From Kofleriaceae bacterium (lineage in GTDB: Bacteria > Myxococcota_A > Polyangia > Haliangiales > Haliangiaceae): DNA of 33,026 bases. A program made the position numbers and the translations under genes. The notes under the pieces were generated by a model that was given only the letters and a program-made list of their open reading frames with translations, searched no databases and was not told the origin of the DNA. This document shows positions 26,675 to 28,207 of this stretch, piece after piece (within the stretch, counting starts at the first letter, position 1; every line of letters starts with the position of its first letter). The stretch is taken from the NCBI GenBank assembly GCA_024762925.1, contig JANTGM010000062.1, forward strand, positions 1 through 33,026. The letters are read 5' to 3'.

Positions 26675-28207
26675 ATGCCAGCACCCGCCCCTAGCCAATT
26701 CTTCTCAGTGTTTTCCCCAGCCATTTCGCGCGTCATGGTTGCTCTCGGCGTTGCGCTCGCACTCATGGCTGGATTGGCCAAGGCAGCGGAGGCCAAACCT
26801 AGGGTTGTGGTTTTGTCATTCAAGGGGCCAAAGGCAAAGTCGTTTCAAAGCACGGTGGAGTCGTTGGTCAAGACAGTAGCCAAGGTGATTCCCGCAAGCC
26901 GCTTTCGCAAAACATCCAAGAAAGTGCGACGCTTTCGCCCCAACCGCAAGGGCTACCGTGCTGTAGCAAATCGGATGGACCTCGATGGCTATGTCGAAGG
27001 CACAGTGAGTCGCAAGCGTGGCAAGCTTCGCCTAGTGGTCAAATTCCGCGGCGCTAACGGCCGGGTTCGAGCTGAGGAAGTTGAGATTCTCGTAAAGCGC
27101 CCCAAGCTGAACACGGGAGAGAAGCGTCAGCTTCGCCGTGGCATTCAGCGCCGCCTTCGCTCCCTTGGGCGCGACGATGACGACGACGACGACGACGACG
27201 ATTGGGACGACGACGACGACGACGATGACGACGACGATGACGACGACGATGATGACGACGACGACGATGATGACGACGACGACGACGATGACGATGACGA
27301 CGACGACGATGATGATTGGGACGACGATGACGACGATGACGATGACGACGATGACGATGACGACGATGACGATGACGACGATGACGATGACGACGATGAC
27401 GATGACGACGATGACGACGATGACTGGGACTATGACGAAGGTGCCGATCGCAGCCGTGCCGTGGAGGCACTTGCAGGTCTCTCCTTCAGCTCGCGCAGCC
27501 TAAGCTTCGACGCAGATGACACAGGCTCCGACCCACAAGGCTATGCTGGAGCAATGGTTCCCGGCTTCTATGCCGATATCAGCGTATTTCCACTTGCCTT
27601 CGCAAACCAAGAAGGCCCCCTTCGAGGCATTGGCCTCACTGCCGTCATCGATCAAGTATTCAAGATTGAATCGAAGCTTCAAGGCATGGCAGAGACCGTT
27701 TTGCCCACAAGCCAAGGCAGATACGGATTTGGATTGCTGTATCGCCACAATCTAAACCCAGACGAAGCAACGGGCATTACCATTCGCGGCTCCCTCCGAT
27801 ATGCAGCTCAAAGCTTCAACATCGACAAGAGCGAATCCTCTGCTGTCACAATCCCCAATGTCGATTACGCGTATATCGAGCCGGGCTTTGCCGTCACCTT
27901 TCCCGTTAATCCGCAAATCGATCTAGGTATTGCAGGCCACTTCTACATCATTCAATCCACTGGCGAGGTTCAGGAAGCGCAGCAGTATGGTGGAGCCGCG
28001 GTCTCCGGATTCGATGGAATGCTCGGGGCAACGTACAAAGTGATTCCTCGTGTGATCATCCGAGCAGAGGCGCGCTACGCGACGATCAAACACATTTTTG
28101 ATGGCTCGGGTAACCTCACTGACCGCGACAACAACGGCCAGCAAGACGTGAGCAGTGCCTCAGACAATTACCTAAGCGTCTTTACTACGATCGGTTACCT
28201 TTACTAG
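26675..28207 (+). CDS. Outer-membrane beta-barrel protein with a poly-aspartate segment
   Basis: 510 aa, not a family I recognise. From the ATG at 26675 there is a signal peptide (VALGVALALMAGLAKAAEA). Residues ~35-165 form a basic domain (PRVVVLSFKGPKAKSF, SRKRGKLRLVVKFRG) resembling TolB-like N-terminal folds. Residues 167-251 contain 82 Asp and only three Trp: 10 Asp, Trp, 37 Asp, Trp, 35 Asp, Trp. Residues ~260-510 look like an outer-membrane barrel: alternating strands, FYADISVFPL, RYGFGLLYRHN, VIIRAEARYATIKHIF, ending in IGYLY with a C-terminal aromatic. The Asp segment could bind calcium or other cations on the surface or in the periplasm. GGAAAG precedes the start by about nine bases. 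The same frame is open from 26552, but that part overlaps pilT. Confidence 0.82.
   Translation: MPAPAPSQFFSVFSPAISRVMVALGVALALMAGLAKAAEAKPRVVVLSFKGPKAKSFQSTVESLVKTVAKVIPASRFRKTSKKVRRFRPNRKGYRAVANRMDLDGYVEGTVSRKRGKLRLVVKFRGANGRVRAEEVEILVKRPKLNTGEKRQLRRGIQRRLRSLGRDDDDDDDDDDWDDDDDDDDDDDDDDDDDDDDDDDDDDDDDDDDDDDDDWDDDDDDDDDDDDDDDDDDDDDDDDDDDDDDDDDDDWDYDEGADRSRAVEALAGLSFSSRSLSFDADDTGSDPQGYAGAMVPGFYADISVFPLAFANQEGPLRGIGLTAVIDQVFKIESKLQGMAETVLPTSQGRYGFGLLYRHNLNPDEATGITIRGSLRYAAQSFNIDKSESSAVTIPNVDYAYIEPGFAVTFPVNPQIDLGIAGHFYIIQSTGEVQEAQQYGGAAVSGFDGMLGATYKVIPRVIIRAEARYATIKHIFDGSGNLTDRDNNGQQDVSSASDNYLSVFTTIGYLY
27173..27427 (+). repeat. GAC/GAT codon tract encoding poly-Asp, with a 15-bp sub-repeat
   Basis: 255 bp composed almost only of GAC and GAT, interrupted by TGG at 27203, 27317 and 27425. 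The last third shows a 15-bp period (CGACGATGACGATGA repeated about six times), so part of the tract grew by minisatellite duplication. All units are multiples of three, so the frame is safe. Confidence 0.95.

Follow-up and report, generated by a model that had tools for sequence, protein, structure and literature searches.

In Escherichia coli, a long disordered linker tethers the globular domain of the outer-membrane lipoprotein LpoB (the activator of PBP1B) to the outer membrane, and the disordered linkers of LpoB and Pal must be long enough to reach their partners (PMC12826056). The same domain layout is found in LpoP (PMC7267771). The alpha/beta domain of the TolB N-domain, FlgT, PelC and CsgG belongs to one fold group of envelope proteins. 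In FapF and Deinococcus SlpA an N-terminal part is joined to an outer-membrane barrel, as in the protein described below, but these N-terminal parts are coiled coils and no poly-Asp linker is described in the available portions of the two reports (PMC5557850, PMC9388160). A natural poly-Asp tract that is extracytoplasmic and binds calcium occurs in asporin (PMC3842050), a vertebrate leucine-rich-repeat proteoglycan that provides a chemical analogy only. According to the available portion of a survey of prokaryotic low-complexity regions (LCRs), the most LCR-enriched bacterium was a myxobacterium, and Asp was the second commonest residue of myxobacterial LCRs, mostly in proteins of unknown function; the architecture reported here, from the same phylum, is not described in that portion (PMC6821194). 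A limited literature search returned no poly-aspartate outer-membrane protein of bacteria, which does not establish that such proteins are absent.

The window, that is, the whole stretch of 33,026 nucleotides that was analysed, corresponds to contig C62 of a draft assembly (6.79 Mb, 246 contigs), and the features of the locus are collected in Table 1. The encoded protein resembles LpoB in the predicted fold of its globular domain (Z 10.0, rmsd 2.5, 101 residues) and shows no match to it at the sequence level. It differs from LpoB in its anchor and its order: LpoB has a lipid anchor and a linker N-terminal to the domain, whereas the window protein has a barrel anchor and no lipobox Cys. It likewise lacks the propeller of TolB, and no evidence of an oligomeric channel was obtained for comparison with the TolB/CsgG group (Z about 7-10 against the fold group as a whole).

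Table 1. Coordinates of the poly-Asp barrel gene, its parts and its immediate neighbours in the window.
Feature	Position	Strand	Evidence or remark
PilT/PilU-family type 4a pilus ATPase	25501..26670	+	TIGR01420, E 7e-136
Whole gene, 510 aa: signal peptide, predicted TolB-N/LpoB-like domain, poly-Asp linker, predicted 10-stranded outer-membrane barrel	26675..28207	+	
Probable signal peptide, aa 1-39, AxA-type end (...AKAAEA)	26675..26791	+	judged by eye
N-domain, aa 40-165, net +30, predicted TolB N-domain/LpoB/FlgT/PelC fold	26792..27169	+	AlphaFold2, pLDDT 88.7
15-bp (5-codon) tandem array	27172..27417	+	TRF: period 15, 16.4 copies, 86% matches
Poly-Asp linker, D10-W-D37-W-D35-W-DYD	27173..27436	+	about -84 net with flanks
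Predicted outer-membrane beta-barrel domain, 10 predicted strands, aromatic C-terminus GYLY	27440..28204	+	AlphaFold2, mean pLDDT 83.4
DRDNNGQQD loop (DxDxNGxxD, Ca-loop-like)	28121..28147	+	alignment; predicted last extracellular barrel loop
PilZ-domain protein, 13 bp 3' of the barrel gene	28221..29732	+	TIGR02266

Translation and codon listing bore out the composition given in an earlier sequence-only reading: positions 27173-27427 comprised exactly 85 codons, 82 for Asp and three for Trp, each Asp block (10, 37 and 35 residues) ending in Trp. The tract was continued 3' of 27427 by D-Y-D-E to about 27439. Within 27173-27436, 58 GAC, 26 GAT, three TGG and one TAT codons were counted, and GAC thus made up 58 of the 84 Asp codons versus about 50% in the other window genes. 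Despite this mixture of GAC and GAT, the 85 codons contained no single-step substitution (E, N, G or A). The 15-bp sub-period that had been pointed out earlier was recovered by TRF, but it was regular in the third Asp block alone, blocks 1 and 2 being irregular mixtures of GAC and GAT; the longest exact repeat inside the tract was 80 bp, and growth of the tract by repeats is plausible. The run length is far above chance expectation, since the backwards control pattern of the GAY-run search gave 0 matches in the window's genome and, in a phylum-wide sample of 379 genomes, only 9 had GAY runs of at least 35 codons. The exact number of Asp residues rests on the draft assembly and is uncertain: another contig of this genome, C27, stops within a further poly-Asp tract.

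AlphaFold2 models placed the tract between a TolB-N/LpoB-like domain and a 10-stranded barrel, in agreement with the earlier reading that it separates an outer-membrane barrel from a domain of periplasmic type. When the N-domain model was compared with known structures by VIA-align, Z scores of 10.0 (TolB), 10.0 (LpoB), 9.4 (FlgT) and 8.1 (PelC) were obtained against about 6 for unrelated structures, which places the modelled domain in the TolB-N/LpoB/FlgT/PelC alpha/beta fold group. No Pfam match was found for the window N-domain, and that of one orthologue weakly matched FlgO (E 0.13). The barrel model, built on an alignment of 11 barrels, gave Z about 20 against pOmpT, OmpT and OpcA; OpcA and the omptins OmpT/Pla share its strand number and overall barrel at 7-14% identity, and the PF13505 match to the domain was weak. 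The even strand number of the model, the signal-like N-terminus and the aromatic C-terminus are those of a predicted outer-membrane barrel. An omptin protease was considered and rejected, as neither an omptin Pfam match nor an invariant His in the family alignment was found, leaving a likeness of the barrel only.

In the barrel model, short turns (barrel residues 156-159 and 203-204) lay at the same end as the termini, opposite the longer variable loops. Because the short turns share their side with both termini, in the usual periplasm-in layout, the model predicts a periplasmic position for the N-terminal linker instead of one at the cell surface. The 510-aa protein contains no Cys at all and is therefore not a lipoprotein. 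Net charges were +30 for the N-domain, -84 for the linker and -10 for the barrel, and the linker is presumably disordered, to judge from its amino-acid composition. The DRDNNGQQD loop resembles the DxDxDGxxD calcium loop and is variably retained among orthologues; on its sequence it would be a better putative calcium candidate than the poly-Asp tract.

Of 56 related genomes, 45 encoded barrel homologues, paralogues and distant homologues included, the named matches being Kofleriaceae, other Myxococcales or deltaproteobacterial metagenome assemblies. The order of N-domain, charged linker and barrel was common to orthologues at genus, family and order level, and in more distant class members a barely acidic linker lay between an N-domain-like region and a barrel. 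All 27 linkers compared (26 orthologues, the window's included, and one paralogue) were net negative, a count that, like those of reading frame and motifs given below, was taken over related and thus non-independent sequences with statistics that ignore phylogeny. In these 27 proteins the barrel was thus always accompanied by an acidic linker, usually milder than pure Asp, and none of them lacked the acidic bias on which the sequence-only reading depended. These 27 linkers ranged over 47-218 aa, 22-93% D+E and 0-26% K+R; most of the orthologous ones mixed D/E with K/R blocks. Lys/Arg made up 14-26% of the linker in most family members, and the net charge per residue came as near neutral as about -0.06. 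What is kept is the position of the linker beside PilT/PilU and its charged, presumably disordered character, and what varies is its composition.

Pure poly-Asp was restricted to the window genus and some paralogues. In the linker of the genus member L018, Asp runs of 10-18 were parted by K/G/V/S/P/T, and in that of L019 an Asp run was followed by Asp with Tyr; in a tree of N-domain plus barrel, L009 and L018 grouped with full support. In the linkers of relatives within the family, short motifs were enriched over shuffled linkers, namely GF.K (11 of 24 linkers, 0.48 expected), DD.PL, also given as DD.PL(P) (12 of 24, 0.95 expected), and K/R-VA.K (10 of 24, 0.7 expected), these figures having been obtained post hoc with residue classes merged and related sequences pooled. 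GF.K, DD.PL(P) and K/R-VA motifs were absent from the linkers of the window genus. In an order-level paralogue (L127), the linker carried repeated DDAWDDDDADDAWDDDD, and acidic blocks with Trp thus recur outside the genus.

The barrel gene begins 4 bp past the stop codon of the PilT/PilU gene, and PilT/PilU was found directly upstream in all 26 genomes (the window's included) whose loci had upstream sequence to inspect, so that the gene is genetically linked to a pilus gene. The PilZ-domain gene adjoined the barrel gene in both sister genomes as well. This neighbourhood suggests a partner in the type IV pilus or in another envelope-spanning motility machine. A promoter scan gave nothing above chance. 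The divergent upstream gene (24399-25412, minus strand) opens with a zinc ribbon and ends in an AgmX/PglI, GltJ-like domain, which hints at a motility neighbourhood.

In the window's genome, 16 tracts of at least 10 GAY codons were found in 10 genes, one of them running off contig C27, and all 16 were read in the Asp frame, though most have other frames open. GAY windows of 20 codons numbered 114, the most of a 52-genome set. Asp runs of at least 35 occurred in three genes of the genome (the window gene and one each on C47 and C68), all with the order domain, Asp run, barrel; in the C68 protein the domain is short. In another protein, that of C112, SH3-like repeats (by eye) were linked to a barrel-like domain. 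The C47 protein (L115, G000 C47:11000-12000) has two PEGA-like repeats (by eye), a D20-G-D15-G-D38 linker and a barrel, and so shows the same design with another periplasmic domain. On C27, a paralogous N-domain gene (L113, G000 C27:1-560) leaves the contig end inside a poly-Asp tract, where the assembly breaks. Elsewhere in the phylum, GAY runs of at least 35 codons lay on ScpB-like C-terminal tails, lipoproteins and others (named by eye); ScpB-like proteins of other class members (L146 and L147) end in 38-39 consecutive Asp. The remaining window proteins were not unusually acidic (mean D+E 12.6%, K+R 10.9%), and a salt-in acidic proteome was rejected as the cause on this ground.

Given the conserved position of the linker, its varying composition and the precedent of the LpoB and Pal linkers, the simplest reading is a periplasmic tether with an outer-membrane anchor, a flexible charged spacer taken to an extreme, and we hold this to be somewhat better than an even proposition. 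The predicted 10-stranded barrel would anchor the protein in the outer membrane, and from its N-terminus the linker would hang into the periplasm, bearing the basic TolB-N/LpoB-like domain, which would have to reach a partner at or beneath the peptidoglycan. The linker would serve as a spacer, intrinsically disordered and highly charged. Growth of the GAC/GAT repeat would here have lengthened it and turned almost every residue into Asp, with selection for an acidic, non-folding sequence probably holding the Asp frame. That position and a charged, presumably disordered character are kept among orthologues, and exact sequence not, favours such a tether. A passive spacer, however, needs no pure Asp, so charge itself may matter, and the enriched short motifs in the linkers of relatives mean that these can exceed the role of a pure spacer. 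An entropic brush, as proposed in the sequence-only reading, stands in the sense of such a flexible charged tether and falls in that of a surface brush.

The strongest rival, which overlaps partly with the tether and to which a minor though appreciable share of belief is given, is a largely neutral origin: in a lineage with a tendency to Asp-rich LCRs, triplet slippage would have lengthened a linker that tolerates nearly any soluble disordered sequence, with no special role for poly-Asp. The GAC bias and the 15-bp repeat are in keeping with it, as are the long Asp tracts on unrelated proteins of the phylum, the barely acidic linkers of distant class members and the LCR enrichment of myxobacteria in the survey portion cited above (PMC6821194). 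It is opposed by the use of the Asp frame in all ten genes where other frames were open at most tracts, by the lack of single-step changes in codons that mix GAC and GAT, and by the uniformly negative sign of the linkers. It is also conceivable, although rather unlikely, that poly-aspartate is a genus-wide module linking unrelated periplasmic domains (TolB-N-like, PEGA-like and SH3-like) to outer-membrane barrels, and that the polyanion itself has a common periplasmic job, for example barrel delivery via basic chaperones or charge repulsion holding the domain off the membrane. An electrostatic latch, in which the acidic linker would fold onto the basic N-domain and keep it masked until its release by a competing polyanion or ion, is improbable. 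Charges of +30 and -84 are adjacent within one chain, with similar values in the genus sister L018 (+21/-61) and the paralogue L010 (+22/-69), but the rank correlation between N-domain and linker net charge was weak over 27 proteins (Spearman -0.22, p 0.26), with none to be seen outside the genus, and marine ionic strength would screen such an interaction if the organism is marine. Charge compensation between the two parts was rejected for the same weakness and confinement to the genus.

A store or buffer of calcium or another divalent cation beneath the outer membrane, which the sequence-only reading had put forward, is quite improbable. The charge density is extreme and the poly-Asp of asporin binds calcium (PMC3842050), yet storage is disfavoured because it would favour an unbroken polyanion across orthologues, which is missing in most of them: linkers with the Lys/Arg contents given above, some near neutral, would make a poor metal store. 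Other members of the phylum also carry similar Asp tracts on proteins that are presumably cytoplasmic, such as the ScpB-like ones. Mineral contact, likewise proposed from the sequence, or a brush exposed at the surface draws on general polyaspartate chemistry only, and is made very improbable by the even-stranded barrel model, which has its short turns and both termini on one side, and by an N-domain whose predicted fold is that of periplasmic envelope proteins. That the tract is a collapsed or chimeric repeat is hardly credible: it is a long low-complexity tract in a draft of many contigs, another of which ends in poly-Asp, but its flanks are unique, its frame is one and open, the repeat is interrupted by Trp and irregular GAT codons and is exact over 80 bp at most, and independent metagenome assemblies of sister species show poly-Asp at the same place with different interruptions.

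The orthologues form a natural series within one gene and at one genomic place, from barely acidic through mixed-charge to pure poly-Asp linkers, which makes it testable whether charge, length or embedded motifs determine the function of a disordered linker in the bacterial envelope. The comparison also names a protein family of uncultured Kofleriaceae-type myxobacteria that is linked to a pilus retraction ATPase and whose N-domain lacks a Pfam assignment.

Elsewhere in the window, a multihaem cytochrome with MtrC/MtrF-like and cytochrome c domains is encoded at 8518-10548, and three pseudopilin-type genes (N_methyl) adjoin a large FG-GAP repeat protein at 10555-16314 (minus strand). At 32930-33026, 5.4 perfect copies of an acidic 18-bp repeat (EESELE-type) extend to the contig end, so that the contig breaks in the repeat.
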